From Candidula unifasciata (lineage: Eukaryota; Mollusca; Gastropoda; Stylommatophora; Geomitridae): DNA of 64,000 nt. Position numbers and translations under genes: made by a program. Shown here in pieces: positions 11,837-60,051 of this stretch (positions within the stretch are counted from its first letter, which is position 1; each line of letters starts with the position of its first letter). The DNA lies in the NCBI GenBank assembly GCA_905116865.2, contig CAJHNH020000791.1, forward strand, positions 808,161 to 872,160, in the 5' to 3' direction. A model generated the notes under the pieces. The model was given only the letters and a program-made list of their open reading frames with translations. It was not told the DNA's origin and did not search any database.

Positions 11837-12547
11837 ACGAAGTCTATGCTTATAACAACCAGACAAAAGTTGCAAACATTAATACTGCACAAGCCGACAC
11901 TCGAGCTCTACATTGATAAATTACCTATTGTTAATGTAACGGAACACAAAACTTGAGGCCTTACAATTGACAACCATTTAACCTGGAATTCTCATGTTTT
12001 TGTGATAACTAAGAAAATAGCACAAAAAGTTTATCAGCTTGCAAAAATTCAGCACTTTCTAGACGAAGATGCAAGAAAAGTATTTTACGCGTCTTACATC
12101 CAAACACATGTCGACTATTGTTCCACAGTTTGGGATGGTTGCGCCAAGTCCAATGTTAAAAGACTAAGTTCTCTTCAAAATCGTGCTTTACGCCTGGTTT
12201 CAGATAATAAACATATCGTAAAAAATAATCTCTATAAACATCTAAGACTATTGCCATTTAGCAAACGTTTAATTTTCAACAAGGCCAAATTTATTCATAA
12301 AATTTTATCTCAAAATACTCCAAACTACCTTTTCCGATTAATTAAATCAAATCCTATAAATAGCAAGCGACTAAATTTATTACATTTACCTAAACCTAGA
12401 ATAGATTTATATAAAACAAGTTTAGCGTACTCCGCTGCTCATTTGTGGAACCAACTTCCACTAGACCTGAAACATTCTAAAAGTCCCTATTCATTCAACC
12501 GTAAACTTTTTCAATTCACACTTACAAGCGATTATATGCCACCTTGA
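11837..12547 (+). pseudogene. Reverse transcriptase C-terminal fragment (non-LTR)
   Basis: Reading from TKSMLITTRQKLQTL at 11837, the frame continues through LYIDKLPIVNVTEHKT, meets TGA at 11954-11956 where the family normally has a residue before the G-L-T-I-D-N-H-L-T-W motif, and stays open to the TGA at 12545. The distal part has V-D-Y-C-S-T-V-W-D, L-S-S-L-Q-N-R-A-L-R-L and the ending S-L-A-Y-S-A-A-H-L-W-N-Q-L-P, all typical of the thumb/C-terminal part of Jockey- and CR1-like reverse transcriptases. The catalytic palm is absent, so no activity is expected. The frame is otherwise intact, suggesting a fairly recent insertion. Composition is A/T-rich compared with its surroundings. Confidence 0.85.
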
Positions 12548-36703: not shown

Positions 36704-36840
36704 CTTTGGGTCTGTCTTCTTGTTGTGTGGGTCATCCTCGTCCATCTCAAAGTAGAGTTCACTCTTGGTGATAGACATGGTTCCATTGACGACCACTCCA
36801 GGGGCTATCAGCTGACACGGGGTGGACAGGGCAACCGGAC
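36704..36840 (-). CDS. NBEA: NBEA-like exon D (start of PH-like domain)
   Basis: This 137-nt exon has acceptor TCTGTGTCCCCAG before GTCCGGTTGC and a consensus donor AAAG|GTAAGT. It encodes (G)PVALSTPCQLIAPGVVV, then NGTMSITKSELYFEMDEDD, then PHNKKTDPK. The G-P-V-x-L-S-T, Q-L-I-A-P, V-V-V-x-G-T and S-E-L-Y-F-E-x-D-E-x-D motifs match the first strands of the PH-like domain of neurobeachin/LRBA, which packs against the BEACH domain. It enters in phase 1 and leaves in phase 0. The next exon of the family should begin with the L-A-Y-T-E-G-L-H-G-K-W segment, and nothing like it was found at lower coordinates. The acceptor and the first 19 coding bases are the founder of a 67-bp minisatellite of about 34 further copies lying directly upstream in the transcript. 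Confidence 0.92.
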
Positions 36841-39152
36841 CTGGGGACACAGAGGCAACATGGGACATTTCAGTGATACAATAACAGAGTGGACAGGGCA
36901 ACCGGACCTGGGGACAGAGAGGCAACATGGGACATTTCAGTGATACAATAACAGAGTGGACAGGGCAACCGGACCTGGGGACAGAGAGGCAACATGGGAC
37001 ATTTCAGTGATACAATAACAGAGTGGACAGGGCAACCAGACCTGGGGACAGAGAGGCAACATGGGACATTTCAGTGATACAATAACAGAGTGGACAGGGC
37101 AACCAGACCTGGGGACAGAGAGGCAACATGGGACATTTCAGTGATACAATAACAGAGTGGACAGGGCAACCGGACCTAGGGACAGAGAGGCAACATGGGA
37201 CATTTCAGTGATACAATAACAGAGTGGACAGGGCAACCGGACCTGGGGACAGAGAGGCAACATGGGACATTTCAGTGATACAATAACAGAGTGGACAGGG
37301 CAAACCAGACCTGGGGGACAGAGAGGGCAACATGGGACATTTCAGTGATACAATAAACAGAGTGGACAGGGCAACCAGACCTGGGGACAGAGAGGCAACA
37401 TGGGACATTTCAGTGATACAATAACAGAGTGGACAGGGCAACCAGACCTGGGGACAGAGAGGCAACATGGGACATTTCAGTGATACAATAACAGAGTGGA
37501 CAGGGCAACCAGACCTGGGGACAGAGAGGCAACATGGGACATTTCAGTGATACAATAACAGAGTGGACAGGGCAACCGGACCTGGGGACAGAGAGGCAAC
37601 ATGGGACATTTCAGTGATACAATAACAGAGTGGACAGGGCAACCGGACCTAGGGACAGAGAGGCAACATGGGACATTTCAGCGATACAATAACAGAGTGG
37701 ACAGGGCAACCGGACCTAGGGACAGAGAGGCAACGTGGGACATTTCAGTGATAGAATAACAGAGTGGACAGGGCAACCGGACCTAGGGACAGAGAGGCAA
37801 TATGGGACATTTCAGTGATACAATAACAGAGTGGACAGGGCAACCGGACCTGGGGACAGAGAGGCAACATGGGACATTTCAGTGATACAATAACAGAGTG
37901 GACAGGGCAACCGGACCTAGGGACAGAGAGGCAACATGGGACATTTCAGTGATACAATAAACAGAGTGGACAGGGCAACCGGACCTGGGGACAGAGAGGC
38001 AACATGGGACATTTCAGTGATACAATAACAGAGTGGACAGGGCAACCAGACCTGGGGACAGAGAGGCAACATGGGACATTTCAGTGATACAATAACAGAG
38101 TGGGACAGGGCAACCAGACCTGGGGACAGAGAGGCAACATGGGACATTTCAGTGATACAATAACAGAGTGGACAGGGCAACCAGACCTGGGGACAGAGAG
38201 GCAACATGGGACATTTCAGTGATACAATAACAGAGTGGACAGGGCAACCAGACCTGGGGACAGAGAGGCAACATGGGACATTTCAGTGATACAATAACAG
38301 AGTGGACAGGGCAACCGGACCTGGGGACAGAGAGGCAACATGGGACATTTTCAGTGATACAATAACAGAGTGGACAGGGCAACCGGACCTAGGGGGACAG
38401 AGAGGCAACATGGGACATTTCAGTGATACAATAACAGAGTGGACAGGGCAAACCGGACCTAGGGACAGAGAGGCAACGTGGGACATTTCAGTGATACAAT
38501 AACAGAGTGGACAGGGCAACCGGACCTAGGGACAGAGAGGCAATATGGGACATTTCAGTGATACAATAACAGAGTGGACAGGGCAACCGGACCTAGGGAC
38601 AGAGAGGCAACATGGGACATTTCAGTGATACAATAACAGAGTGGGACAGGGCAACCGGGACCTAGGGACAGAGAGGCAACATGGGGACATTTTCAGTGAT
38701 ACAATAACAGAGTGGACAGGGCAACCGGACCTAGGGACAGAGAGGCAACATGGGACATTTCAGTGATACAATAACAGAGTGGACAGGGCAACCGGACCTG
38801 GGGACAGAGAGGCAACGTGGGACATTTCAGTGATACAATAACAGAGTGGACAGGGGCAACCGGACCTGGGGACAGAGAGGCAACATGGGACATTTCAGTG
38901 ATACAATAACAGAGTGGACAGGGCAACCGGACCTAGGGACAGAGAGGCAACATGGGACATTTCAGTGATACAATAACAGAGTGGACAGGGCAACCGGACC
39001 TGGGGACAGAGAGGCAACATGGGACATTTCAGTGATACAATAGACAGAGTGGACAGGGCAACCGGACCTGGGGACAGAGAGGCAACATGGGACATTTCAG
39101 TGATACAATAACAGAGTGGACAGGGCAACCGGACCTGGGGACAGTGAGGAAA
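36822..39152 (-). repeat. 67-bp minisatellite of duplicated exon D splice acceptors
   Basis: About 34 tandem copies of a 67-bp unit adjoin exon D. On the minus strand each unit holds CACTGAAATG (branch-site-like), TTGCCTCTCTGTCCCCAG (pyrimidine tract plus AG) and then the first 19 nt of exon D, GTCCGGTTGCCCTGTCCAC. In the genuine exon this continues into coding sequence. In every repeat copy it runs into TCTGTTATTG and then an in-frame TGA, after about 11 residues. Most units differ by only 1-3 substitutions, with scattered single-base indels in homopolymers (37,300-37,370 and 38,340-38,700). The array ends near 39,150 in degenerating copies. Confidence 0.95.
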
Positions 39153-39202
39153 GCGTGGGATACTTCAATACAATAGACAGAGTTTATAGGAAACTTGGCA
39201 AG

Positions 39203-39432
39203 AATAGATCAGATCAGAGAATCATCAGACTGTCACAGATGAGATCAGAGAATCATCAGACTGTCACAGATGAGATCAGAGAATCATCAGACTGTCACAG
39301 ATGAGATCAGAGAATCATCAGACTGTCACAGATGAGATCAGAGAATCATCAGACTGTCACAGATGAGATCAGAGAATCATCAGACTGTCACAGATGAGAT
39401 CAGAGAATCATCAGACTGTCACAGATGAGGTC
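39203..39432. repeat. 31-bp minisatellite, about 7 copies
   Basis: GATCAGAGAATCATCAGACT then GTCACAGATGA; near-identical copies just beyond the decoy-acceptor array. Confidence 0.95.
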
Positions 39433-39689
39433 AGCTCAATGCTGGCAACATCAGCATCATGTGCCCTGCCAAAGGTAGACACACAATGAGTACTAGAAAT
39501 GTTGGTGACTGAGTCTGAAAAACTGTTTACCAACTGAAGAGAACAATATTTCTGCCACTTTCCTCTTCATATCAGTCATTCTTCCACTCACTTACTCACT
39601 CACACATGCACAAATGCAAACACACACATACTCACTTTCTCTCTCTCTCTCTCTCTTTTCCTATTTCCTAAACCTACATAAAATTCTCC

Positions 39690-39930
39690 ATACCAATATG
39701 TTAGGTTAGGTTAGTTGCGTAACCTTTACAGGACATTGTAGAACTAACCCCAGCAGCCCTGGGCTGTTGTGTGGTTTCTCTAGGCAAATTTATGTCCAAT
39801 AGTTTGCCATTGCTTTCTGGATAGTCAGCCCCCTGATACCTCAGTCGAAACCAACGCATGGCCCACAGCTCGGATCGAACCCGGCACCCCGACATTACGA
39901 AGCGTTCGCCACAGAGCCAACTACCAATAT
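39690..39930 (-). mobile_element. tRNA-derived SINE, family 1, copy 1
   Basis: On the minus strand: GGCTCTGTGGCGAACGC (A-box region), GCCGGGTTCGATCC (a consensus B box), body with AAGCAATGGCAAACTA and AAATTTGCCTAG, then GTTCTACAATGTCC and a (CCTAA)n tail. A second diverged copy lies at 60052-60262, sharing ordered blocks including GGCAAATTT, TAGTTTGCCATTGCT, GAAACCAACGCA and CCCGGCACCCCGACATTAC on the plus strand. It lies in the intron between NBEA-like exons C and D, same orientation as the gene. Confidence 0.75.
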
Positions 39931-40040
39931 TTATAACACTGATATATCTTCCAACAAACCCGAAATTCCCCGACCAGACCAAAACAAATGTTATAGTATA
40001 TACAAACTGTATCGATCAGCATCAATTCTTCCACTTCAGG

Positions 40041-41770
40041 CATCTTCGTAAAGGTTTACCATACCACTTGAGTCATCTACCTAAAGGTTTACCATACCAC
40101 TTGGGACATCTACCTAACTACCTAAAGGTTTACCACACCACTTGGGACATCTACCTAAAGGTTTACCATACCACTTGCATCATCTACCTAAAGGTTTACC
40201 ATACCACTTGGGACATCTACCTAAAGGTTTACCACACCACTTGGGACTTCTACCTAAAGGTTTACCATACCACTTGGGTCATCTACCTAAAGGTTTACCC
40301 TAACACTTGGAACATCTACCTAAAGGTTTACCATACCAATTGAGTCATCTACCTAAAGGTTTACCATACCACTTGGGACATCTACCTAACTACCTAAAGG
40401 TTTACCACACCACTTGGGACATCTACCTAAAGGTTTACCATACCACTTGAGTCATCTACCTAAAGGTTTACCATACCACTTCAGTCATCTGTCTAAAGGT
40501 TTACTATACCACTTGGGACATCTACCTAAAGGTTTACCATACCACTTAGGATATCTACCTAAAGGTTTATCATACCACTTAGGACATCTACCTAAAGGTT
40601 TACCACACCACTTGGGACATCTACCTAAAGGTTTACCATACCACTTGGGTCATCTACCTCAAGGTTTACCATACCACTTGGGACATCTACCTAAAGATTT
40701 ACCATACCACTTGGGACATCTACCTAAAGGTTTACCACACCACTTAGGATATCTACCTAGAGGTTTACCATACCACTTGGGTCATCTACCTAAAGGTTTA
40801 CCATACCACTTGGGTCATCTACCTAAAGGTTTACCATACCCCTTGGGGCATCTACCTAAAGGTTTACCGTACCACTTGGGGCATCTACCTAAAGGTTTAC
40901 CATACCACTTGGGGCATCTACCTAAAGGTTTACCATACCACTTGGGTCATCTTTCTAAAGGTTTACCATACTACTTGAGTCATCTACCTAAAGGTTTACC
41001 ATACTACTTGGGTCATCTACCTAAAGGTTTACCATACCACTTGTATCATCTTCCTAAAGGTTTACCATACCACTTGAGTCATCTACCTAAAGGTTTACCA
41101 TACCACTTAGGACATCTACCTAAAGGTTTATCATACCACTTAGGACATCTACCTAAAGGTTTACCACACCACTTGGGACATCTACCTAAAGGTTTACCAT
41201 ACCATTTAGGGCATCTACCTAAAGGTTTACCATACTACTCGGGGCATCTACCTAAAGGTTTAACATACCACTTGGGTCATCTACCTAAAGGTTTACCATA
41301 CCACTTGAGTCATCTACCTAAAGGTTTACCGTACCATTTGGGTCATCTACCTAAAGGTTTACCATACTACTTGGGACATCCAACTAAAGGTTTACCATAC
41401 CACTTAGGGCATCTACCTAAAGGTTTACCATACCACTTGGGTCATCTGTCTAAAGGTTTACCATTCCACTTGGGGCATCTACCTAAATGTTTACCATACC
41501 ACTTGGGACATCTACCTAAAGGTTTACTATACCACTTGGGTCATCTAGCTAAAGGTTTACCATACCACTTGGGTCATCTACCTAAAGGTTTACCATACCA
41601 TTTGGGACATCTACCTAAAGGTTTACCATACCACTTGGGACATCTATCTAAAGGTTTACCATACCACTTGGGACATCTACCTAAAGGTTTACCGTACCAC
41701 TCGGGTCATCTACCTAAAGGTTTACCATACCACTTGGGGCATCTACCTAAAGGTTTACCATACCACATGG
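40041..41770. repeat. 33-bp minisatellite, about 52 copies
   Basis: CATCTACCTAAAGGTTTACC then ATACCACTTGGG repeats every 33 bp (40861, 40894). Being 11 codons long, it yields an uninterrupted frame repeating G-H-L-P-K-G-L-P-Y-H-L for over 440 codons. No splice site, promoter or divergent coding sequence supports a gene. Confidence 0.96.
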
Positions 41771-42041
41771 GCCACAACAGCCAGGTGTCACCTGCAGTTC
41801 TATGCGGGCAAGGAGGATACAAGCTAGGGATGAGAGAAGACATCTGTAGAAACCATGGACATTTCCTGATGGACTGAAAGAGTTATAGAAGAAAGACATG
41901 CAAATGGATAAACTGGGACGAGAAAACCAAAAGCTGTATCTGAAAGTGTGTCGTACACGAAAAAAACAGAACAAAAACATGATGACGATCAACTGTAGCC
42001 AACTTACGATATGAAGATGGCAAGTGATCTGATAAACATAC
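41771..42041. other. Intron sequence next to exon C
   Basis: Spacer between the 33-bp array and the exon C donor. 42186-42604 on the other side is equally plain. Confidence 0.6.
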
Positions 42042-42185
42042 CTGAGAACTCTTGCTCCACATCCTTCTCCTCCATGACCAACTCCTCGTCTGTAAAGTCT
42101 GTTGTTTCTCTTTGAGTTTTCTTCAGGCTGGCTAGATGGGCGTGGAAGGCTTCCCGTGCTGCGTTGATGGCGTCCTCGGCTGCAC
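42042..42185 (-). CDS. NBEA: NBEA-like exon C (acidic linker)
   Basis: This 144-nt exon has acceptor TTTGCTGTTGCCAG before GTGCAGCC and a consensus donor TCAG|GTATGT. It reads (G)AAEDAINAAREAFHAHLAS, then LKKTQRETTDFTDEELV, then MEEKDVEQEFS, and supplies the first base of a Gly codon. It corresponds to the low-complexity, acidic, less conserved linker that ends immediately before the G-P-V-x-L-S-T start of the PH-like domain. It enters in phase 1, so it cannot be joined directly to exon B, which leaves two bases. A direct B-C splice shifts frame. The exit in phase 1 matches the entry of exon D exactly. On its own the peptide would be hard to assign; its identity rests on strand, donor/acceptor quality and the in-frame junction to exon D. 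Confidence 0.8.
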
Positions 42186-42604
42186 CTGGCAACAGCAAAT
42201 ACATCAGTGACACTCACACAAAGTTACATAAACACACAGATTGTTTTCACACTGACAGGTATGTTGCGATACATCTATCTATGCTGTGAGAACCTCTGAA
42301 TGGCAACACATTTAAATCACATACAGTTCTACTGCTCAAACGAGTATCTAGCTCATGCTGTAGGAAAATGACACATTATACATGACTAGAGTCACCACGA
42401 TCCTCATACATACACGCTACAACTGTACATTGCTGAACCTGCAACAGACAACACTTCTCAAGTTATTAGTTGATCGGCATTTTTAATACACTTAACGATG
42501 ATGAGTTATAAACGGTGATGAACTACTTACTATCTCTGTCTCTTGTAATCAACAAAAGATTCAGTTGCTCAATCATAATATTAATACTTTCGCTCTCCAA
42601 AAAT

Positions 42605-44728
42605 GAGATGTGCTAGTGGACTCTAGCATGCAGGCCAAGAAACCGTCTCATCTTCTATGAAGTTCTGCTAGTGGACTCTAGCATGCAGGCCAAGAAACCG
42701 TCTGATCTCCTATGAAGTTCTGCTAGTGGGCTCTAGCATGCAGGCCGAGAAACCGTCTCATCTCCTATAAAGTTCTGCTAGTGGACTCTAGCATGCAGGC
42801 CGAGAAACCGTCTCATCTCCTATGAAGTTCTGCTAGTGGACTCTAGCATGCAGGCCAAGAAACCGTCCCATCTCCTATGAAGTTCTGCTAGTGGGCTCTA
42901 GCATGCAGGCCGAGAAACCGTCTCATCTCCTATGAAGTTCTGCTAGTGGACTCTAGCATGCAGGCCGAGAAACCGTCTCATCTCCTATGAAGTTCTGCTA
43001 GTGGACTCTAGCATGCAGGCCGAGAAACCGTCTCATCTCCTATGAAGTTCTGCTAGTGGACTCTAACATGCAGGCCAAGAAACCGTCTCATCTCCTATGA
43101 AGTTCTGCTAGTGGACTCTAGCATGCAGGCCAAGAAACCGTCTCATCTCCTATGAAGTTCTGCTAGTGGACTCAAGCATGCAGGCCAAGAAACCGTCTCA
43201 TCTCCTATGAAGTTCTGCTAGTGGACTCTAGCATGCAGGCCAAGAAACCATCTCATCTCCTATGAAGTTCTGCTAGTGGACTCTAGCATGCAGGCCAAGA
43301 AACCGTTTCATCTCCTATGAAGTTCTGCTAGTGGGCTCTAGCATGCAGGCCAAGAAACCGTCTCGTCTCCTATGAAGTTCTGCTAGTAGGCTCTAGCAAG
43401 CAGGCCGAGAAACCGTCTCGTCTCCCATGAAGTTCTGCTAGTGGGCTCTAGCATGCAGGCCGAGAAACCGTCTCATCTCCTATGAAGTTCCGCTAGTGGA
43501 CTCTAGCATGAAGGTCGAGAAAACGTCTCATCTCCTATGAAGTTCTGCTAGTGGACTCTAGCATGCAGGCCAAGAAACCGTCTCATCTCCTATGAAGTTC
43601 TGCTAGTGGACTCTAGCATGCAGGCCAAGAAACCGTCTCATCTAATATGAAGTTCTGCTAGTGGGCTCTAGCATGCAGGCCAAGAAACCGTCTCGTCTCC
43701 TATGAAGTTCTGCTAGTAGGCTCTAGCAAGCAGGCCGAGAAACCGTCTTGTCTCCTATGAAGTTCTGCTAGTGGGCTCTAGCATGCAGGCCAAGAAACCG
43801 TCTCATTTCCTAAGAAGTTCCGCTAGTGGACTTTAGCATGCAGGCCAAGAAACCGTCTCGTCTCCTATGAAGTTCTGCTAGTAGGCTCTAGCAAGCAGGC
43901 CGAGAAACCGTCTCGTCTCCTATGAAGTTCTGCTAGTGGGCTCTAGCATGCAGGCCGAGAAACCGTCTCATCTCCTATGAAGTTCCGCTAGTGGACTCTA
44001 GCATGAAGGTCGAGAAAACGTCTCATCTCCTATGAAGTTCTGCTAGTGGACTCTAGCATGCAGGCCAAGAAACCGTCTCATCTCCTATGAAGTTCTGCTA
44101 GTGGACTCTAGCATGCAGGCCAAGAAACCGTCTCATCTAATATGAAGTTCTGCTAGTGGGCTCTAGCATGCAGGCCAAGAAACCGTCTCGTCTCCTATGA
44201 AGTTCTGCTAGTAGGCTCTAGCAAGCAGGCCGAGAAACCGTCTCGTCTCCTATGAAGTTCTGCTAGTGGGCTCTAGCATGCAGGCCAAGAAACCGTCTCA
44301 TTTCCTAAGAAGTTCCGCTAGTGGACTTTAGCATGCAGGCCAAGAAACCGTCTCGTCTCCTATGAATTTCTGCTAGTGGACTCTAGCATGCAGGCCAAGA
44401 AACCGTCTCATCTCCTATGAAGTTCTGCTAGTGGACTCTAGCATGCAGGCCAAGAAACCGTCTCATCTAATATGAAGTTCTGCTAGTGGGCTCTAGCATG
44501 CAGGCCAAGAAACCGTCTCGTCTCCTATGAAGTTCTGCTAGTAGGCTCTAGCAAGCAGGCCGAGAAACCGTCTCGTCTCCTATGAAGTTCTGCTAGTGGG
44601 CTCTAGCATGCAGGCCAAGAAACCGTCTCATTTCCTAAGAAGTTCCGCTAGTGGACTTTAGCATGCAGGCCAAGAAACCGTCTCGTCTCCTATGAAGTTC
44701 TGCTAGTGGACTCTAGCATGCAGGCCAA
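42605..44728. repeat. 55-bp minisatellite with 495-bp higher-order repeat, about 38 copies
   Basis: TGCTAGTGGACTCTAGCATG, CAGGCCAAGAAACCGTC and CTCCTATGAAGTTC make up the unit (42661 to 42716). The rare variant CATGAAGGTCGAGAAAACG occurs at about 43,508 and 44,003 (495 bp, nine units), and TCTAATATGAAG at about 43,641, 44,136 and 44,467. The array ends mid-unit, directly joined to the 26-bp array. Confidence 0.96.
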
Positions 44729-47700
44729 GCCTCTACCAGTCTCAACCCACTTGCCCTCTACCAGTCCCAACCCACTTGCCCTCTACCAGTCTCAACCCAC
44801 TTGCCCTCTACCAGTCTCAACCCACTTGCCCCTCTACCAGTCTCAACCCACTTGCCCCTCTACCAGTCTCAACCCACTTGCCCCTCTACCAGTCTCAACC
44901 CACTTGCCCCTCTACCAGTCTCAACCCACTTGCCCCTCTACCAGTCTCAACCCACTTGCCCTCTATCAGTCTCAACCCACTTGCCCCTCTACCAGTCTCA
45001 ACCCACTTGCCCCTCTACCAGTCTCAACCCACTTGCCCCTCTACAAGTCTCAACCCACTTGCCCCTCTACAAGTCTCAACCCACTTGCCCCTCTACCAGT
45101 CTCAACCCACTTGCCCCTCTACCAGTCTCAACCCACTTGCCCCTCTACCAGTCTCAACCCACTTGCCCTCTACCAGTCCAACCCACTTGCCCCTCTACCA
45201 GTCTCAACCCCACTTGCCCCTACCAGTCTACCAGTCTCAACCCTCAACACTTGCCCCTCTACCAGTCTCAACCCACTTGCCCCTCTACCAGTCTCAACCC
45301 ACTTGCCCCTCTACCAGTCTCAACCCACTTGCCCCTCTACCAGTCTCAACCCACTTGCCCCTCTACCAGTCTCAACCCACTTGCCCCTCTACCAGTCTCA
45401 ACCCACTTGCCCCTCTACCAGTCTCAACCCACTTGCCCCTCTACCAGTCTCAACCCACTTGCCCCTCTACCAGTCTCAACCCACTTGCCCCTCTACCAGT
45501 CTCAACCCACTTGCCCCTCTACCAGTCTCAACCCACTTGCCCTCTATCAGTCTCAACCCACTTGCCCCTCTACCAGTCTCAACCCACTCAACCCCCACTT
45601 GCCCCTCTTACCAGTCTCAACCCACTTGCCCTCTACCAGTCTCAACCCACTTGCCCCTCTACCAGTCTCAACCCACTTGCCCCTCTACCAGTCTCAACCC
45701 ACTTGCCCCTCTACCAGTCTCAACCCACTTGCCCCTCTACCAGTCTCAACCCACTTGCCCCTCTACCAGTCTCAAACCCACTTGCCCCTCTACCAGTCTC
45801 AACCCACTTGCCCCTCTACCAGTCTCAACCCACTTGCCCCTCTACCAGTCTCAACCCACTTGCCCCTACCAGTCTCAACCACTTGCCCCTCTACCAGTCT
45901 CAACCCACTTGCCCCTCTACAGTCTCAACCCACTTGCCCCTCTACCAGTCTCAACCCCACTTGCCCCTCTACCAGTCTCAACCCACTTGCCCCTCTACCA
46001 GTCTCAACCCACTTGCCCCTCTCTACCAGTCCCAACCCACTTGCCCCTCTTCCAGTCCCAACCCACTTGCCCCTCTTCCAGTCCCAACCCACTTGCCCCT
46101 CTACCAGTCTCAACCCACTTGCCCCTCTACCAGTCCCAACCCACTTGCCCCTCTACCAGTCTCAACCCACTTGCCCCCTCTACCAGTCCCAACCCACTTG
46201 CCCCTCTACCAGTCTCAACCCACTTGCCCCTCTACCAGTCTCAACCCACTTGCCCCTCTACCAGTCCCAACCCACTTGCCCCTCTACCAGTCCCAACCCA
46301 CTTGCCCCTCTACCAGTCCCAACCCACTTGCCCCTCTACCAGTCCCAACCCACTTGCCCCTCTACCAGTCTCAACCCACTTGCTCCTCTACCAGTCCCAA
46401 CCCACTTGCCCCTCTACCAGTCCCAACCCACTTGCCCCTCTACCAGTCTCAACCCACTTGCCCCCTCTACCAGTCTCAACCCACTTGCCCCTACTCTCAA
46501 CCACTTGCCCCTCTACCAGTCCCAACCCACTTGCCCCTCTACCAGTCTCAACCCACTTGCCCCTCTACCAGTCCCAACCCACTTGCCCCTCTACCAGTCT
46601 CAACCCACTTGCCCCTCTACCAGTCCCAACCCACTTGCCCTCTACCAGTCCGAAATCAACCCACTTGCCCCTCTACCAGTCTCAACCCACTTGCCCCTCT
46701 ACCAGTCCCAACACCCACTTGCCCCTCTACCAGTCCCAACCCACTTGCCCCTCTACCAGTCCCAACCCACTTGCCCCTCTACCAGTCCCAACCCACTTGC
46801 CCCTCTACCCAGTCTCAACCCACTTGCCCCTCTACCAGTCCCAACCCACTTGCCCCTCTACCAGTCCCAACCCACTTGCCCCTCTACCAGTCCCAACCCA
46901 CTTGCCCCTCTACCAGTCCCAACCCACTTGCCCCTCTACCAGTCCCAACCCACTTGCCCCTCTACCAGTCTCAACCACTTGCCCCTCTACCAGTCAACCA
47001 ACCTCACTTGCCCTCTACCAGTCCCAACCCACTTGCCCCTCTACCAGTCTCAACCCACTTGCCCCTCTACCAGTCTCAACCCACTTGCCCCTCTACCAGT
47101 CCCAACCCACTTGCCCCTCTACCAGTCCAACCCACTTGCCCCTCTACCAGTCCCCACCCACTTGCCCCTCTACCAGTCCCAACCCACTTGCCCCTCTACC
47201 AGTCTCAACCCACTTGCCCCTCTACCAGTCCCAACCCACTTGCCCCTTCAAACATGCTCTACCAGTCCCAACCCACTTGCCCCTCTACCAGTCTCAACCC
47301 ACTTGCCCCTCTACCAGTCCCAACCCACTTGCCCCTCTACCAGTCCCAACCCACTTGCCCCTCTACCAGTCCCAACCCACTTGCCCCTCTACCAGTCTCA
47401 ACCCACTTGCCCCTCTACCAGTCTCAACCCACTTGCCCCTCTACCAGTCCCAACCCACTTGCCCCTCTACCAGTCCCAACCCACTTGCCCCTCTACCAGT
47501 CCCAACCCACTTGCCCCTCTACCAGTCCCAACCCACTTGCCCCTCTACCAGTCTCAACCCACTTGCCCCTCTACCAGTCCCAACCCACTTGCCCCCTCTA
47601 CCAGTCCCAACCCACTTGCCCCTCTACCAGTCTCAACCCACTTGCCCCTCTACCAGTCTTCAACCCACTGCCCCTCTACCAGTCTCAACCCACTTGCCCC

Positions 47701-50700
47701 TCTACCAGTCCCCAACCCACTTGCCCCTCTACCAGTCCCAACCCACTTGCCCCTACCAGTCCCAACCCACTTGCCCCTCTACCAGTCTCAACCCACTTGC
47801 CCCTCTACCAGTCTCAACCCACTTGCCCCTCTACCAGTCTCAACCCACTTGCCCCTCTACCAGTCTCAACCCACTTGCCCCTCTACCAGTCCTCAACCCA
47901 CTTGCCCCTCTACCAGTCTCAACCCACTTGCCCCTCTACCAGTCGCAACCCACTTGCCCCTCTACCAGTCAAACCCAACCCACCCACTTGCCCCTCTACC
48001 AGTCTCAACCCACTTGCCCCTCTACCAGTCTCAAACCCACTTGCCCCTCTACCAGTCCCAACCCACTTGCCCCTCTACCAGTCCCAACAACCCACTTGCC
48101 CTCTCTACCAGTCCCAACCCACTTGCCCCTCTACCAGTCTCAACCCACTTGCCCCTCTACCAGTCCCAACCCACTTGCCCCTCTACCAGTCTCAACCCAC
48201 TTGCCCCTCTACCAGTCTCAACCCACTTGCCCCTCTACCAGTCTCAACCCACTTGCCCCTCTACCAGTCTCAACCCACTTGCCCCTCTACCAGTCCCTCA
48301 ACCCACTTGCCCCTCTACCAGTCCCAAACCCACTTGCCCATCTACCAGTCCCAACCCACTTGCCCTCTACCAGTCTCAACCACTTGTCTACCAGTCTCAA
48401 CCCACTTGCCCCTCTACCAGTCTCAAACCACTTGCCCCTCTACCAGTCCCAACCCACTTGCCCCTCTACCAGTCTCAACCCACTTGCCCCTCTACCAGTC
48501 TCAACCCACTTGCCCCTCTACCAGTCCCAACCCACTTGCCCTCTACCAGTCTCAACCCACTTGCCCCCTCTACCAGTCTCAACCCACTTGCCCCTCTACC
48601 AGTCCCAACCCACTTGCCCCTCTACCAGTCCCAACCACTTGCCCCTCTACCAGTCCCAACCCACTTGCCCCTCTACAGTCTCCCACCCCACTTGACCATC
48701 TACAGTCCAAACCCACTTGCCCCTCTACCAGTCCCAACCCACTTGCCCCTCTACCAGTCTCAACCCACTTGCCCTCTACCAGTCCAACACTTGCCCCTCT
48801 ACCAGTCCCAACCCACTTGCCCTCTACCAGTCCCAACCCACTTGCCCCTCTACCAGTCTCAACCCACTTGCCCCTCTACCAGTCCCAACCCACTTGCCCC
48901 TCTACCAGTCTCAACCCACTTGCCCCTCTACCAGTCTCAACCCACTTGCCCCTCTACCAGTCCCAACCCACTTGCCCCTCTACCAGTCCCAACCCACTTG
49001 CCCCTCTACCAGTCTCAACCCACTTGCCCCTCTACCAGTCCCAACCCACTTGCCCCTCTACCAGTCCCAACCCACTTGCCCCTCTACCAGTCCCTCAAAC
49101 CACTTGCCCCTCTACCAGTCTCAACCCACTTGCCCCTCTACCAGTCTCAACCCACTTGCCCCTCTACCAGTCCCAACCCACTTGCCCCTCTACCAGTCCC
49201 AACCCACTTGCCCCTCTACCAGTCCCAACCCACTTGCCCCTCTACAGTCTCAACCCACTTGCCCCTCTACCAGTCTCAACCCACTTGCCCCTCTACCAGT
49301 CTCAACCCACTTGCCCCTCTACCAGTCCCAACCCACTTGCCCTCTAACCAGTCCCAACCCACTTGCCCCTCTACCAGTCTCAACCCACTTGCCCCTCTAC
49401 CAGTCTCAACCCACTTGCCCCTCTACCAGTCTCAACCCACTTGCCCCTCTACCAGTCTCAACCCACTTGCCCCTCTACCAGTCTCAACCCCTTGCCCTCT
49501 ACCAGTCTCAACCCACTTGCCCCTCTACCAGTCCCAACCCACTTGCCCCTCTACCAGTCTCAACCCACTTGCCCCTCTACCAGTCCCAACCCACTTGCCC
49601 CTCTACCAGTCCCAACCCACTTGCCCCTCTACCAGTCTCAACCCACTTGCCCCTCTACCAGTCTCAACCCACTTGCCCCTCTACCAGTCCCAACCCACTT
49701 GCCCCTCTACCAGTCTCAACCCACTTGCCCCCTCTACCAGTCTCAACCCACTTGCCCCTCTACCAGTCCCAACCCACTTGCCCCTCTACCAGTCCCAACC
49801 CACTTGCCCCTCTTACCAGTCTCAACCCACTTGCCCCTCTACCAGTCCCAACCCACTTGCCCCTCTACCAGTCCCAACCCACTTGCCCCTACTACCAGTC
49901 CCCTCAACCCACTTGCCCCTCTACCAGTCCCAACCCACTTGCCCCTCTACCAGTCTTCAAACCCAACTTGCCCCTCTACCAGTCTCAACCCACTTGCCCT
50001 CTACCAGTCCCAACCCACTTGCCCCTCTACCAGTCCAACCCACTTGCCCCTCTACCAGTCTCAAACCCACTTGCCCCTCTACCAGTCTCAACCCACTTGC
50101 CCCTCTACCAGTCCCAACCCACTTGCCCCTCTACCAGTCCCAACCCACTTGCCCCTCTACCAGTCTCAACCCACTTGCCCCTCTACCAGTCCCAACCCAC
50201 TTGCCCCTCTACCAGTCCCAACCCACTTGCCCCTCTACCAGTCCTCAACCCACTTGCCCCTCTACCAGTCTCAACCCACTTGCCCCTCTACCAGTCTCAA
50301 CCCACTTGCCCCTCTACCAGTCTCAACCCACTTGCCCCTCTACCAGTCTCAACCCACTTGCCCCTCTACCAGTCTCAACCCACTTGCCCCTCTACAGTCC
50401 CAACCCACTTGCCCCTCTACCAGTCTCAACCCACTTGCCCCTCTACCAGTCCCAACCCACTTGCCCCTCTACCAGTCCCAACCCACTTGCCCCTCTACCA
50501 GTCTCAACCCACTTGCCCCTCTACCAGTCTCAACCCACTTGCCCCTCTACCAGTCTCAACCCACTTGCCCCTCTACCAGTCTCAACCCACTTGCCCCTCT
50601 ACCAGTCCCAACCCACTTGCCCCTCTCCCACCCACTTGCCCACCAGTCCCACCCACTTGCCCCTCTACCAGTCTCAACCCACTTGCCCCTCTACCAGTCT

Positions 50701-52038
50701 CAACCCACTTGCCCCTCTACCAGTCCCAACCCACTTGCCCCTCTACCAGTCTCAACCCACTTGCCCCTCTACCAGTCTCAACCCACTTGCCCCTCTACCA
50801 GTCCCAACCCACTTGCCCCTCTACCAGTCTCAACCCACTTGCCCCTCTACCAGTCTCAACCCACTTGCCCCTCTACCAGTCTCAACCCACTTGCCCCTCT
50901 ACCAGTCTCAACCCACTTGCCCCTCTACCAGTCTCAACCCACTTGCCCCTCTACCAGTCTCACCCACTTGCCCTCTACCAGTCCCAACCCACTTGCCCCT
51001 CTACCCAGTCCCCTCTAACCCACTTGCCCCTCTACCAGTCTCAACCCACTTGCCCCTCTACCAGTCCCAACCCACTTGCCCCTCTACCAGTCTCAACCCA
51101 CTTGCCCCTCTACCAGTCTCAACCCACTTGCCCCTCTACCAGTCCCAACCCACTTGCCCCTCTACCAGTCTCAACCACTTGCCCCTCTACCAGTCTCAAC
51201 CCACTTGCCCCTCTACCAGTCCCAACCCACTTGCCCCTCTACCAGTCTCAACCCACTTGCCCCTCTACCAGTCCCAACCCACTTGCCCCTCTACCAGTCC
51301 CAACCCACTTGCCCCTCTACCAGTCCCAACCCACTTGCCCCTCTACCAGTCTCAAACCCACTTGCCCCTCTACCAGTCTCAACCCACTTGCCCCTCTACC
51401 AGTCTCAACCCACTTGCCCCTCTACCAGTCTCAACCCACTTGCCCCTCTACCAGTCTGCCCCTCTACCAGTCCCAACCCACTTGCCCCTCTACCAGTCCC
51501 AACCCACTTGCCCCTCTACCAGTCCTCAACCCACTTGCCCCTCTACCAGTCTCAACCCACTTGCCCCTCTACCAGCCCCTCCAGTCAACCCACTTGCCCC
51601 TCTACCAGTCCTCAACCACTTGCCCCCCTCTACCAGTCCCAACCCACTTGCCCCTCTACCAGTTGCCCACTTGCCCCTCTACCAGTCCCAACCCACTTGC
51701 CCCTCTACCAGTCCCAACCCACTTGCCCCTCTACCAGTCCCAACCCACTTGCCCCTCTACCAGTCCCAACCCACTTGCCCCTCTACCAGTCTCAACCCAC
51801 TTGCCCTCTACCAGTCTCAACCCACTTGCCCCTCTACCAGTCTAACACTTGCCCCTCTACCAGTCCCCACTTGCCCCTCTACAGATCTCAAACTTGCCCC
51901 TACCAGTCCCAACCCACTTGCCCCTCTACCAGTCTCAACCCACTTGCCCCCTTACCAGTCCAACCCACTTGCCCCTCTACCAGTCTCAACCCACTTGCCC
52001 CTCTACCAGTCTCAACCCACTTGCCCCTCTACCAGTCT
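44729..52038. repeat. 26-bp satellite, about 280 copies
   Basis: The unit is CCCCTCTACCAGTCTCAACC plus CACTTG; a CAGTCCCAAC variant is roughly as common from 46 kb on. Three units are 78 nt (26 codons) and no plus-strand frame contains a stop, so frames of up to about 2,400 codons arise. Most deviations are single-base losses or gains in C runs, or partial-unit junctions, and these shift frame without any sign of selection. The very high indel rate also suggests long-read consensus error. Confidence 0.97.
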
Positions 52039-52324
52039 CCCAGTGGGTTCTTGATCATCCTCCTCCTCCCCTTGCCCATCCTCCCAGATATCAACCCACT
52101 TCCAGACAAGCTACCAGTCCCAACCACTGCCCTGCCTTCAGCAGTGGCCTCTGGATCCAGAATCCAGTGCCCCTCTTGATCAACCCACTTGCCCTCTACG
52201 AGACAGTTTTATCCAGCTTATCAACTCTTGCCCCCCTACAGTCTCATTCACTTGCCTATTGTTACCAGTGTCATTGTTATTATTACTGCTTTTTAATCAG
52301 TGGTAGAGTGCCTAGGCTGCCCTT

Positions 52325-52652
52325 CACATGCAGAAATGACAGATGCAGGGATTCAAGAGCAGAGACACAGATGACAGCACCCAACCCAACAAACTGCAGG
52401 GACACAAGAGCAGAGACACAGATGACAGCACCCAACCCAACAAACTGCATTGACACAAGAGCAGAGAAACAGATGACAGCACCCAACCCAACAAACTGCA
52501 GGGACACAAGAGCAGAGACACAGATGACAGCACCCAACCCAACAAACTGCAGGGACACAAGAGCAGAGACACAGATGACAGCACCCAACCCAACAAACTA
52601 CAGGGACACAAGAGCAGAGACACAGATGACAGCACCCAACCCAACAAACTAG
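52325..52652. repeat. 51-bp minisatellite, about 6 copies
   Basis: GGGACACAAGAGCAGAGACA, CAGATGACAGCACCCAACCC and AACAAACTGCA per unit; multiple of three. Confidence 0.95.
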
Positions 52653-52984
52653 CTCTACCTAGCAGCATAAATATTGCTACTAAACAGTTTCCAGAATTCA
52701 TGAAAAACTTCAGGGAGGAAAAGTTGATGAGAAAGGGCACTGGACATCTGTACTCAGAAGCTGTGGCCTAGAACCTCACTGGTAGTATCTGCCTTCAGTG
52801 TCCCAGAGACAGCTGACAGTTGTCACCCAGCACATGGAGAACTCAGAACGAGACTGTGACCTATATCAGCTCCAGTTGTTGATATCTATATGGGTCCACA
52901 ACTTGGCACTGACTGCTGGTGTTCAAACATTTCAACAGGGTGACATCCACATGTCAAATGACTGACTGATGTGACACACATAAT
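52653..52984. other. Unique intron spacer
   Basis: No exon-like segment found here although an exon is expected between B and C. Confidence 0.55.
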
Positions 52985-54440
52985 ACTCACAATTTGTCTG
53001 TTGTCTCGTCCACACACACATATGCAAACATGCATGCACAAACACACACACACAATGTGACAGACACACACACACACACACACACACAAACATGCATGCA
53101 CATACACACACACAAAATGTGACATGGACACACACACACACAATGTGACATGGACATACACACACACACACACAATGTGACACGGACACACACAAACACA
53201 CACAAACAATGTGACAGACACACACACACATATGCAAACATGCATGCACAAACACACACACACAATGTGACGGACACAGGGCACACACACACACTCACAC
53301 ACACAAACATAATGCAGATACACACAGAGCTTTGTGACATGGACACACACCATGACAGCATGGGACACATGGACATGTGAACACACACACAATGTGACAC
53401 GGACAGGAACAGTACCACACACAAAATGTGACATGGTATACACACACACACAATGTGACAGGACACACACACACACAATGTGACACGGACACACACACAC
53501 ACAATGTGACAGGACACACACACACACACAAAATGTGACATGGACATACACACACACACAATGTGACATGGACATACACACACACACAATGTGACACGGA
53601 CACACACACACAAAAATGTGACATGGACACACACACACACAATGTGACAGTGTGTTTGACACAATGTGACACGGACACACACAGACACAATGTGACACGG
53701 ACACACACACACACAATGTGACACGGACACACACACAAAATGTGACATGGACATACACACACACACACAATGTGATCCGGACACACACACACACACACAC
53801 AAAATGTGACATGGACATACACACACACACAATGTGATCCGGACACACACACACACAATGTGACAGACAACACAGACAAGTGTGACACGGAACCACACAC
53901 ACACACACAAAATGTGACTTGTTATACACACACACACATGTGACACGGACACACACACACACATGTGACATGGAAGTACACACACACACACAATGTGCAC
54001 GGACACAGTAGTTGACACACAATGTGTTTGTTACACACACACACAATCACATGACACACAATGGCACACACACACACACACAAGTGTTCACACACAAGAC
54101 ACAATGTGACACGGAACACAGTAGTTGACAATGTGTTTGTTAAGTACACACACACAATGACAGCACACACACACACACACAATGTGACACGGACACACAC
54201 ACACAAGTGTGCACGGACACCACACACACACACAATGTGTTTGTTAAGTACACACACACATGACACATGGGCACACACACACTGTGACACACACACAGAC
54301 AAGACAAGTGTGCAGGAACCAGTAGTTGACACAATGTGACACGGACACATCACACACACAGCATGGACACACATGGACACACACACAATGTGACACGGAC
54401 ACACACACACACACAATGTGACACGGACACACACACAATA
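52985..54440. repeat. CA-rich compound satellite
   Basis: (CA)n runs alternate with AATGTGACACGGACA or AATGTGACATGGACA words and, from about 54,000, AGTAGTTGACACAATGTG and TGTTTGTTAAGTACA words. The latter are also found in the 92-bp exon B array. It runs right up to the donor of exon B. Cys/His-rich open frames here are artefacts. Confidence 0.93.
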
Positions 54441-54445
54441 CTCAC

Positions 54446-54612
54446 TGTTGATCGTCAAGTCCCCAGGCTCCATGTTTGTTGAGAAGGATGTTGAGGATCT
54501 TCTCTTTCTGCTTGACGGCCAGGGCATGGTCACGTCTCTTGGCTGACTTAATGAGATGGTCACAGAGCTTTTCCTCTTCTCGGCGCTCCATGACAGCATG
54601 GGCACACATGGA
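54446..54612 (-). CDS. NBEA: NBEA-like exon B
   Basis: This 167-nt exon has acceptor AACACTTCACAG before TCCATGTGTG and a consensus donor CAACA|GTGAGT. It starts SMCAHAVMERREEEKLCDHL, continues IKSAKRRDHALAVKQKEK and ends ILNILLNKHGAWGLDDQQ. The R-R-E-E-E-K-x-C-D-H-L-I block and the K-H-G-A-W-G motif are hallmarks of neurobeachin/LRBA just before the W-E-D-D/poly-Arg segment. It enters in phase 0 and leaves in phase 2. The first 24 nt and the acceptor are repeated seven more times immediately upstream in the transcript as a 92-bp minisatellite (see the array entry). The start given here is the acceptor nearest the body of the exon, the only one that reads through; in every other copy the ATG that ends the 24-nt segment is followed by TGA. 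A long CA-rich tract begins directly at the donor side. Confidence 0.9.
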
Positions 54613-55310
54613 CTGTGAAGTGTTCAGACAAGACAAGTTGCAGGAACCAGTAGTTGATTGTGTGTTTGTTAAGTACATCACATGACAGCATGGGCACACA
54701 TGGACTGTGAAGTGTTCAGACAAGACAAGTTGCAGGAACCAGCAGCTGATGGTGTGTTTGTTAAGTACATCACATGACAGCATGGGCACACATGGACTGT
54801 GAAGTGTTCAGACAAGACAAGTTGCAGGAACCAGTAGCTGACAGTGTGTTTGTTAAGTACATCACATGACAGCATGGGCACACATGGACTGTGAAGTGTT
54901 CAGACAAGACAAGTTGCAGGAACCAGTAGTTGATGGTGTGTTTGTTAAGTACATCACATGACAGCATGGGCACACATGGACTGTGAAGTGTTCAGACAAG
55001 ACAAGTTGCAGGAACCAGTAGTTGATTGTGTGTTTGTTAAGTACATCACATGACAGCATGGGGACACATGGACTGTGAAGTGTTCAGACAAGACAAGTTG
55101 CAGGAACCAGTAGCTGACAGTGTGTTTGTTAAGTACATCACATGACAGCATGGGGACACATGGACTGTGAAGTGTTCAGACAAGACAAGTTGCAGGAACC
55201 AGTAGTTGATGGTGTGTTTGTTAAGTAAGTACATCACATGACAGCATGGGCACACATGGACTGTGAAGTGTTCAGACAAGACAAGTTGCAGGAACCAGTA
55301 GCTGATGGTG
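54589..55310 (-). repeat. 92-bp minisatellite of duplicated exon B splice acceptors
   Basis: Eight copies in total, counting the one that belongs to exon B. The marker GGACTGTGAAGTG recurs near 54,610, 54,702, 54,794, 54,886, 54,978, 55,070, 55,162 and 55,258. Each unit on the minus strand carries the pyrimidine-rich TTGTCTTGTCTGAACACTTC, then ACAG and the first 24 coding nt of exon B. The seven non-genuine copies then continue TGATGTACTT, so the exon frame reads ...Ala-Val-Met-stop. Copies are nearly identical; one has a 4-bp tandem insertion (near 55,225). The rightmost copy ends near 55,310 in ordinary intron sequence. Confidence 0.95.
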
Positions 55311-56041
55311 TATTTGTTCCATCACATCACCACATGACTTCAACTATATGAAGGCCTACTGGCAGATGGAAGACCGGAAGAAAAAACAGAACAGGAGTTG
55401 AAGGAATGATTGATAAGCATCTCACTCATATAACACATGAGCGAGTAGCCAAATGTACTGCTGCCGACACAAGATAAACAACATCCTTTTGTGTTTTTGT
55501 TTCATTTGATAAAAGCCTTCAGCAGGATCACAATCACTGACTGTGTGGCTCTACAGCAGTGTTCTTCAACCCGCAGGAAAAGTCCAGTTGGGCTGCCCAA
55601 GTTTCTGCTTAATCATGTACCGGGGTAGAGTAAGTCTGTAGGATCAACAGCTTTGATGACAATCAAACACATACAAACTCCAGAAACTCATTTCAACTGA
55701 GTAAAACAGAAAACCCTGATAATCATTTCCATGAAAAAAGAAGGTCAACATAAAGTCAACCTTTGGAAGATGTCAGATCATGCTCACTTGATCATCATTA
55801 AAAGAGAAGCTGATCACTGACTTCTGATGTCTCATGTGTGGCAATTGTTGTCCGGGTTTTAGATATCACTCCAAAAGGAATATCCATCTCTGAGGTAAAG
55901 GGCTGTCAGATTGTGTTTTTGTGTGTGTGGGTGCAAACAGACTTTCTCAGCCATGTCAGAAATGAAACCAAACATAAAAATGGAATGGACGTTTTAGAAA
56001 TGCTCTGTGTGTATCAGAAACAATGCTCCTGTCATGTGTAT
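55311..56041. other. Unique intron sequence
   Basis: A stretch at 56,002-56,041 (CTGTGTGTATCAGAAACAA and following) recurs at about 57,647-57,686 on the other side of the retroelement. Confidence 0.7.
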
Positions 56042-56057
56042 GATTTGATTTGATTTG

Positions 56058-56631
56058 ATTCAAGAACCGACATCACAGCATTTGGGGCATTCACATAAGC
56101 ACTCCATCCCCATCTTCAGCAGCCAGCGAAGAGTTCCGATACTAATGGTGCCAGTAGCTTTCTGATTAAACGTCCGTCTTGCCTTTCCTCTGAGCCTCGA
56201 GCATCTGCCAGAACCTCTAGTCACCCCCAACTGCATCAATCTCACCAGACAGGTGATCCATTTGCTCCTCCGCATTGTACACGCTCTCCCACAAGGCACT
56301 AACCACGTCTGCCCTATCATGTAGCAGTATTCCACCAAGCTGTGCAGAGCCAGCCAGTCTGTCCGCCTGTTCATTTCCCGACACACCGGCGTAAAAACCA
56401 AACAATACTCCTCACTCGCGTCCTCCGCAGCGAAGCATGCCACTCTGCACGAAGCATACCTGTTCTTCCTCAGCATGCTTTCTGAATCAGTTACAATCAC
56501 AATGTGTGTGTGTGTCGTGTTCTCTAGCCAGCGGAAAGCTGCAGTGACCGCCTCCACCTCCATTCTTAAGCTGGATGTTGTGGTATCATATGCTAGGCTC
56601 TCCTGCACCAAACGTTGACCATTAACTTTTG
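56058..56631 (-). pseudogene. RNase H domain and C-terminal tail, frameshifted
   Basis: Frame one gives SSLRMEVEAVTAAFRWLE and IVIVTDSESMLRK (second and third catalytic positions). A second frame gives FGFYAGVSGNEQADRLAGSA (fourth catalytic Asp in Q-A-D-R-L). The first frame then resumes with ARRTFNQKATGTISIGTLRW and ECPKCCDVGS, the usual carboxy-terminal C-P-x-C motif. At least two frameshifts separate these blocks. Confidence 0.8.
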
Positions 56632-57379
56632 CTAAGAAGTCCCAACACTTCCTTTGCCTCTTGACACTGAACGGTCTGTGTAAATGATCAAATCCTCTGA
56701 GCGAGCATTATCTTGAATTAATTGCTGAATTTCCACCTCTGTGGCACCTGCTGGCCAGTCTTTGCATTCCTGGGTCAGCGTGATTATGACTCTACACAAG
56801 TCTGACTGCTCAGGTGGCATTTTGACCCACTCCTCTCCTCGCCTAATGTTCTCAAGGATGCAAACCTGTCTGATTGTGTCTTCTGCCTGAGCCATCCATG
56901 ACCTTCCTCTTATCAGCCGCTGACCCTTAACTGCACCCAGAGCTTCATGTAGAGGGTGGTCTGTGTCTGCAGCTACCCTGAGATGTGACTTCGCCTGCAG
57001 CACCGTGTGCCTACCTGCAACCGTCGGCAAACCAAGGATGTATTGCATACACACCACTGGGGTGTCTCTGGTGCAACCCAGAATGACCCGCACAGCCGCG
57101 TTCTGTATGCGCTCTAGTTTGTCCATCTGACTCTTTGAGATGGTAAGCAGTTCCAGGCCATAGTCAACCACTGACAGGATCAGGTGCTGATATAGTGTGA
57201 AAAGCATTCTCTGCTCTATGTCAATTGCAGCCATAGCCTTAAGTGCACTAAGTCCTTTTTGGCATCTCGTCACAACACTCTCCATATGGTCCTTAAATGA
57301 CAGGCTCCTGTCAAATGTAATTCCCAAATACTTCAGTTTGCTCTCTTTGTTGACGTCTCTACCATCTATCGTGAGGCTT
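56632..57379 (-). pseudogene. Reverse transcriptase thumb and start of RNase H
   Basis: Open frame from the gap: SLTIDGRDVNKESKLKYLGI, TFDRSLSFKDHMESV, ...KGLSALKAMAAIDIEQR, ...SVVDYGLELLTISKSQMDK, LERIQNAAVRVILGCTRDTP, then GLPTVAGRH, and finally DLIIYTDRSVSRGK, the first catalytic Asp of RNase H with Gly changed to Arg. K-Y-L-G-I-T-F-D and L-E-R-I-Q-N-A-A-V-R are hallmark RT-thumb motifs. About 249 codons are free of stops, so the copy is rather young. The catalytic RT core, if present, is hidden by the gap. Confidence 0.85.
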
Positions 57380-57396
57380 NNNNNNNNNNNNNNNNN
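57380..57396. other. Assembly gap (17 N)
   Basis: Seventeen N bases interrupt the RT frame of the adjacent retroelement. The flanks do not join in any frame. Confidence 0.99.
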
Positions 57397-57814
57397 AAAA
57401 ACCCCAATTTTATTTCAATGTACAAAAAAAAACAAACAGCAATTTGGCACTATTGTGGTATCAAAACAAACTCAGTATGTTATCAATTTTGCCCCAATCG
57501 AGCAATTGGAATTTTCGTGGTATCAAAACACCCCATCTGTATATAAAATGTATAACAATAAAAGAGCAGTTTGGGGAACGTCTGGTTATCGAAACAACAC
57601 CCATCTGTATTCAGGTTAAACCAATCAAAGCAGCAGATGTGGAACTGTCTGTGTGTATCAGAAACAACACTCCAGTCATGTATATCAGATGTACGAACCA
57701 ATCAAAGCAGCAGATGTGGAACTAGCTGAAAACTAATTTTATGACAGAGTTGACAAATAAACGACTAACCCCACACAAAATTTTCTTTTTTGGTTTAACT
57801 ATCGTGGGTCATAA
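57397..57814. other. A/T-rich intron sequence with degenerate repeats
   Basis: CAATCAAAGCAGCAGATGTG occurs twice (57,622 and 57,699), and GTGGTATCAAAACA-like words recur three times. It begins at the assembly gap. Confidence 0.65.
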
Positions 57815-58177: not shown

Positions 58178-58286
58178 CTCAAAGTCAGCATGCTTCTGCA
58201 CGTCCTCTGCCCTCATTCTGTTGAGAATAAACTCTGCCTCGCTGGCCACACGCACAATGTGATCACGGGTGGCGTGGGCTAGCAGC
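58178..58286 (-). CDS. NBEA: NBEA-like exon A (pre-PH region)
   Basis: This 109-nt exon has acceptor TTGATGTTGCAG before GCTGCTAGCC and donor GAG|GTTTGT. It reads [13 protein letters not shown], then [20 protein letters not shown], then DFE. The block with S-E-A-E-F-I-L-x-R-x-R-A-E-D-V-x-x-H-A-x-F-E is characteristic of the segment upstream of the BEACH module in neurobeachin/LRBA. It enters in phase 2 and ends in phase 0, so the Phe-Glu end joins Ser-Met-Cys-Ala of exon B in the order expected for the family. The acceptor is modest (short pyrimidine stretch) and the donor +3 is T rather than A/G, so exact ends are slightly less certain than for exons B to D. A 27-bp minisatellite begins about 100-160 bp upstream in the transcript, and a 31-bp minisatellite lies about 100 bp downstream of the donor. 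Confidence 0.85.
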
Positions 58287-58439
58287 CTGCAACATCAAAC
58301 AAAATTTTGCTCAACAGCTGCCAATAATCCTGTCATAGCTCCCACAACTACATCCGGATCAGCCTGCACAACTCTCTACTCTGTTTTCATTTCACTGCAA
58401 AACTCTCTGTCTTCAGTCAGTCCCAAAACTACACGTGAT

Positions 58440-60032: not shown

Positions 60033-60051
60033 CATCAGAAAAGTTAGTTCT

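Follow-up and report, generated by a model that had tools for sequence, protein, structure and literature searches.

A 35-copy minisatellite spanning the splice acceptor of exon D in an LRBA/neurobeachin-like gene

Results

The LRBA/neurobeachin-like gene of the window

We analyzed a stretch of 64,000 nucleotides (the window; G000:C791:808161-872160) from an assembly of 1.34 Gb in 7176 contigs. An LRBA/neurobeachin-like gene sits on its minus strand, and four exons, A to D, were delimited by reading the sequence together with the exon phases. Slashes mark splice junctions throughout.

58178-58286, minus strand: exon A, 109 nt, DUF1088 region; edges uncrossed by arrays
54446-54612, minus strand: exon B, 167 nt, DUF1088 region; donor CAACA/GTGAGT
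42042-42185, minus strand: exon C, 144 nt; ends in phase 1, TTCTCAG/GTATGT
36841-42041, minus strand: intron C-D, 5201 nt; tandem arrays with 33-bp, 31-bp and 67-bp units make up about 83% of it (summed by hand from TRF)
36704-36840, minus strand: exon D, 137 nt, start of the PH-BEACH region; donor AAAG/GTAAGT

Exons A and B match Pfam DUF1088 (E 8.9e-42), and exon D aligns with the start of PH_BEACH at 27.0 bits, just below the cut-off of 27.5. With this sub-threshold match, the order DUF1088 then PH-BEACH of neurobeachin and LRBA genes is present. A four-exon query retrieved LRBA (PDB 1t77_A, E 7.9e-15), the matched stretch being the exon D part, and exon D also matches neurobeachin (PDB 1mi1_A); it is open, and the LRBA match spans its 46 codons. 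Rfam gave no match on the window at the gathering threshold. By eye, two open stretches, at 56060-57414 (minus strand) and 11957-12547 (plus strand), resemble remnants of a non-LTR retrotransposon reverse transcriptase / RNase H.

Because exon B ends in phase 2 and exon C needs phase 1, an exon is missing between them (42186-54445); it was found neither in the window, nor in a 264-kb region around it, nor in the genome above the DUF1088 cut-off. The assembly is therefore imperfect here, and the exon may have been lost in a gap near a 7.3-kb array. Much of intron B-C is taken up by this array (44730-52039), which has a 26-bp unit (CCTCTACCAGTCTCAACCCACTTGCC) and a strong strand asymmetry. Two further intronic arrays have minus-strand units that look acceptor-like and no recognised exon at their edge, one at 52344-52650 (TCTTGTGTCCCTGCAG) and one at 58376-60038 (TTGTGCAG), the latter ending about 90 bp upstream of exon A. 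The first of these was considered as the acceptor of the missing exon and rejected, as its reading is, by eye only, unlike the peptide expected for this position.

The missing exon would also be expected if exon D or the whole gene copy were out of use and the array described below had grown in a dead gene, and a pattern search showed no BEACH motif in 70 kb beyond the window, part of which is masked. We nevertheless hold this to be highly improbable, given four open exons with intact splice sites and good DUF1088 and LRBA matches. Nor was any other copy of the gene found: genome-wide, the DUF1088 matches above cut-off are exons A and B only, with a third, weak match below it.

The 67-bp array at exon D

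36822-39183, minus strand: 67-bp minisatellite, 35 copies with 34 decoy acceptors (TRF and unit alignment)
36822-36888, minus strand: copy anchored in the exon and carrying the real acceptor; one more purine in the pyrimidine tract than in the decoys
about 39116-39183, minus strand: outermost copy; diverged in its intronic half, with AG/GT and the 19 exon bases retained

TRF returned one array of period 67, with 35.0 copies and 96% matches, and cutting the minus strand at the acceptor gave 34 decoys plus the exon copy. The initial annotation had placed about 34 copies at 36822-39152; the array and its 34 decoys stand, while its extent is some 30 bp longer, to 39183, and the exon copy brings the count to 35. 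The unit consists of 48 nt of the 3' end of the intron and the first 19 nt of exon D. Its intronic part holds TATCACTGAAATG, branch-site-like by eye, followed by CCTCTCTGTCCCCAG, so the composition first proposed for it (branch-site-like stretch, pyrimidine tract, AG and 19 exon bases) was borne out in the 67-bp copies. The consensus unit reads TCTGTTATTGTATCACTGAAATGTCCCATGTTGCCTCTCTGTCCCCAG/GTCCGGTTGCCCTGTCCAC and ends in the 19 bases with which exon D begins. AG/GT at the junction, which had been passed over, is retained in 35/35 copies. The copy adjoining the exon runs on as exon, and the other 34 revert to the intronic part of the unit. At positions -20 to -3 the real acceptor has 14 pyrimidines versus 15 in the four decoys compared; the decoy tract is not weaker than the real one, and site strength alone therefore cannot explain the choice between them.

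Copies vary chiefly next to the junction, which is preceded by CAG or TAG and followed by GTCCGG or GTCTGG. Units 2-35 differ from the consensus by 39 substitutions and 24 indels in 2278 consensus cells, both counts being overstated, as units with extra bases are partly misaligned. Inner copies are near identical and the outermost, copy 1, is diverged, which places edge copies outside homogenisation, as in the amphioxus "mirages" discussed below. Selection for the decoys need not be invoked: independent changes are few, and homogenisation alone can keep AG/GT. Unit types 10-19 recur in the same order as 21-30, and none of 20000 random reorderings of the units reached such a run. The array has thus probably undergone duplication of an 11-unit block, which suggests that its length is unstable. 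A 34-base probe from the array had at least 24 exact matches in the genome, all listed ones inside the exon D array; no second haplotype or paralogue with another array length was seen among the listed probe matches or the DUF1088 matches above cut-off.

Some of these features could also arise if the assembler had expanded or duplicated a few real copies: several units carry extra homopolymer bases (lengths 68-70), as raw long reads would give, the assembly lacks the exon expected between B and C, and the repeated ten-unit block could itself be an assembly duplication. Against such an artefact, the copies differ by point variants, the outermost one is diverged, and six other, independent sites carry arrays built in the same way (see below); we consider it very unlikely.

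Similar arrays at other exon edges

54589-55318, minus strand: 92-bp array at exon B, 8 acceptors, of which 7 are decoys; the unit covers TTCACAG/ plus the first 24 nt of exon B
Myosin donor array L038: 44 bp, decoy GT kept in 5/9, AGGT in none
Myosin donor array L054: 44 bp, decoy GT kept in 5/5
Myosin donor array L062: 28 bp, decoy GT kept in 7/9
Myosin donor array L066: 48 bp, decoy GT kept in 4/5
Myosin donor array L072: 42 bp, decoy GT kept in 5/5

The exon B array keeps the acceptor in 8/8 copies, with AG/TC rather than AG/GT at the junction, and its decoys read, by eye, SMCAHAVM (or SMCPHAVM) and then TGA. For a wider sample, all 74 of the 74 listed myosin-head matches were fetched and arrays of period at least 20 were counted, with profile-match edges, as opposed to transcript edges, taken as exon edges. 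Arrays cross the 3' edge in 5/74 matches and the 5' edge in 0/74, and the five donor arrays extend 9 to 26 nt into the exon; their decoy donors (listed above) were scored by eye and within the fetched stretches only. Flanks were mostly 150-250 nt (500 nt for the first 22, trimmed to 250 for the counts), and long-unit arrays starting farther off are therefore missed. The array in match L052, which halts at the pyrimidine tract of an acceptor, was scored as not crossing, since it reaches 4 nt into a profile match that itself starts in the intron. The array in L063 (period 11, 3 copies) falls below the period limit of 20, and one match, L088, contains masked bases. No array crosses any of 21 CCT exon matches (0/21), which were taken from 56 for better E-values among multi-exon genes, without two long first-listed single-contig matches. 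Over the three families, boundary arrays occur in 7/99 exons including the four of the window, a biased sample picked because of the finding, and in 5/95 without those four. By eye, the real junction reads AG/GT in 5/7 boundary arrays. The idea of an array unique to the LRBA/neurobeachin-like gene, or to exon D, is refuted by the exon B array and the myosin donor arrays.

These counts have to be read against a dense background. In the 264-kb region, 45.6% of unmasked sequence lies in arrays of period at least 20. Near the myosin matches, such arrays account for 4199/37000 bases of the flanks, 91/4440 bases of the outer 30 nt of the exons and 0/11469 bases of the exon interiors. The five intrusions into the outer 30 nt compare with about 3.0 expected (P 0.18), a value calculated by hand from how densely array ends occur in the flanks, with the edges taken as fully tolerant. 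An enrichment of arrays at splice sites is thus unsupported. Intrusions are as frequent as flank density predicts, and copies of splice sites are therefore tolerated: arrays are barred from coding interiors, but not visibly from splice-site edges.

Coverage of the myosin flanks is 6.5% upstream of acceptors versus 16.2% downstream of donors; the lower acceptor-side value agrees, on small counts, with the notion that arrays are more problematic at acceptors. Taken with the 5 versus 0 crossings, this asymmetry between donors and acceptors is no more than suggestive, and the two acceptor arrays of the window point the other way. Array ends fall within -30 to +40 nt of the exon edge in 11/15 cases at 3' edges (binomial P 0.007) and in 2/6 at 5' edges (P 0.75), a hint of clustering near donors in an interval that was picked after seeing the data.

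Consequences for the transcript

By coordinates, the exon C donor lies about 2.9 kb from the first decoy AG and 5.2 kb from the real one. Joined to a decoy, exon C reads GPVALSTLLLYH and then a stop, 12 residues from the junction codon; without further splicing, the decoy reading is G P V A L S T L L L Y H, stop. The early TGA predicted in the initial annotation is thus there, one residue later than its count of about 11. Its statement that a donor lies at exon-like distance from the last copy alone was too strong: paired with the exon D donor, the three nearest upstream decoys would produce exons of about 204, 271 and 338 nt. Several decoys lie at ordinary exon distance, and the choice must therefore be made by relative proximity across the exon or by exon content; from the anatomy of the array, its view of the locus as a natural test of exon definition was right.

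With AG/GT in the unit, each copy is a potential acceptor and a potential, weak donor, and each 67-nt unit a potential mini-intron that starts at GTCCGG, ends at the following YAG and includes a branch-site-like stretch. One alternative is therefore that the decoys are used and the AG/GT units are then removed as 67-nt mini-introns, in a single step or several, until exon C joins the real exon D, in which case array length would stay hidden from the mRNA. Consistent with this, the motif is kept in every copy and recurs at most of the real junctions of the boundary arrays (the 5/7 scored by eye), the consensus unit matches U1 best at CAGGTCCGG (6/9 positions, with G at +5), and exon C ends in CAG, so that its joining to a decoy would recreate CAG/GTCCGG. 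GTCCGG is a weak donor, though, homogenisation of the array alone may keep AG/GT, and the exon B array is tolerated with AG/TC, so that such removal is not required for tolerance. We regard this alternative as unlikely.

The stops suggest another possibility, in which decoys are used part of the time and the early-stop products degraded, so that array length would lower gene output in a graded and heritable manner. The stop lies 12 codons past the decoy junction in exon D and 8 codons past it in exon B, and the block duplication implies variable length. The amphioxus mirages, on the other hand, are reported without splicing disturbance in RT-PCR (PMC3087553), and we think such graded control quite unlikely.

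Discussion

Taken together, these results point to the exon D array as a splice-site-spanning minisatellite, or mirage, that forms a tolerated ladder of decoy acceptors with no job of its own, the exon-anchored copy winning by exon definition. We give this reading a probability of roughly 0.6. The array may have begun as a short tandem duplication across the boundary of intron C-D and exon D and grown by unequal exchange into a 35-copy, exon-anchored minisatellite. Under exon definition, the acceptor closest to the exon D donor, directly before the complete exon, would win by proximity across the exon. As the arrays are exon-anchored, the intact copy would be the site nearest the exon's other end on either edge. 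Decoys paired with the exon D donor would meet the in-frame stop after 12 codons and yield a non-productive mRNA subject to decay. Four observations favor this reading: (i) AG/GT in all 35 copies, (ii) the block duplication, (iii) the eight intact acceptors of the exon B array and (iv) the arrays at 5/74 myosin donors. The long intron (5.2 kb) upstream of exon D also fits the exon-definition mode. In human minigenes with two identical donors in an exon-definition layout, the exon-proximal donor is reported to be used exclusively (PMC9225289).

Several points weigh against it. For human acceptors, the same paper describes an upstream preference that is reduced, not reversed, under exon definition (PMC9225289); 34 upstream decoys should therefore be a real burden. 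The nearest upstream decoys yield ordinary exon lengths, and, with 0/74 myosin acceptors crossed, the case for tolerance at acceptors comes from the window's two arrays.

It is tempting to extend the argument to a lineage-wide invasion of exon edges by minisatellites, which the spliceosome would read through by a positional rule. Donors would be amplified downstream, where the true site is transcribed first, and acceptors upstream, where it is transcribed last; donor arrays would be tolerated readily, and acceptor arrays only if the choice is enforced across the exon or if, as at exon D, the units are complete AG/GT mini-introns that can be re-spliced. This generalization is unlikely in our estimate. 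If true, the exon D array would be a self-healing splice ladder of 34 rungs and, for the study of splice-site choice, a natural dose series.

In amphioxus, intron-exon boundaries duplicated in the manner of a minisatellite have been described under the name of mirages, in the globins BflGb6 and BflGb9 (PMC3087553) and in PGBD5 and TnC (PMC3902484). BflGb6 is reported with 6 and 3 units (150-160 bp) in two haplotypes, regular splicing by RT-PCR and edge copies outside homogenisation, and units of 10-72 bp are cited there for Adh3 (PMC3087553). Both defining features of a mirage, a tandem unit spanning the exon/intron boundary and an intact adjoining exon, are found at exon D. As described for amphioxus, the unit spans the splice junction, the intact exon lies at one end, AG/GT is kept in many units and the edge copies are not homogenised; mirages there occur at acceptors and at donors, as do the arrays of the present genome. 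The exon D array differs in having 35 copies of 67 bp with AG/GT in all and in belonging to another gene, probably also to another lineage, as the 1.34-Gb assembly exceeds amphioxus genomes in size; BflGb6 was examined by RT-PCR, whereas the exon D array is known from sequence.

In human UBC and other genes, tandem arrays of dual-specific AGGT splice sites are described, together with introns of unit-multiple length in tandem repeats (PMC10809524). The exon D array shares with them an AGGT at the junction of every unit (35/35), the mark of such arrays, which makes each unit a possible intron. The UBC units are coding monomers, in contrast to the exon D unit, which is mostly intron and whose reading hits a stop, and dual use is putative here. 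In human duplicated genes, internal tandem repeats at exon-intron boundaries have been proposed as a possible source of new introns (PMC2812944); these are reported as averaging about 4 units of 30 bp, in segmental duplications and with transcript support, and the exon D array is likewise a boundary minisatellite. The initial annotation knew of no minisatellite amplifying an acceptor at this scale in this gene. The kind is in print (PMC3087553, PMC3902484, PMC2812944), and what stands of the claim is that, among titles and the openings of abstracts, mainly of freely available papers, we found no acceptor array of such copy number and none in neurobeachin/LRBA.

A single genome thus carries boundary-spanning minisatellites in two gene families. 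They could give rise there to new introns or make gene output variable, and the donor arrays provide mirror cases to the acceptor arrays. The choice between identical sites has so far been tested with two sites in constructs, in which position must decide (PMC9225289). The natural gene described here presents 35 near-identical acceptors, in an arrangement that could separate first-come, intron-proximity and exon-proximity rules of site choice. The kind is already known, and the exon D array is a large member of it in a genome where it recurs.
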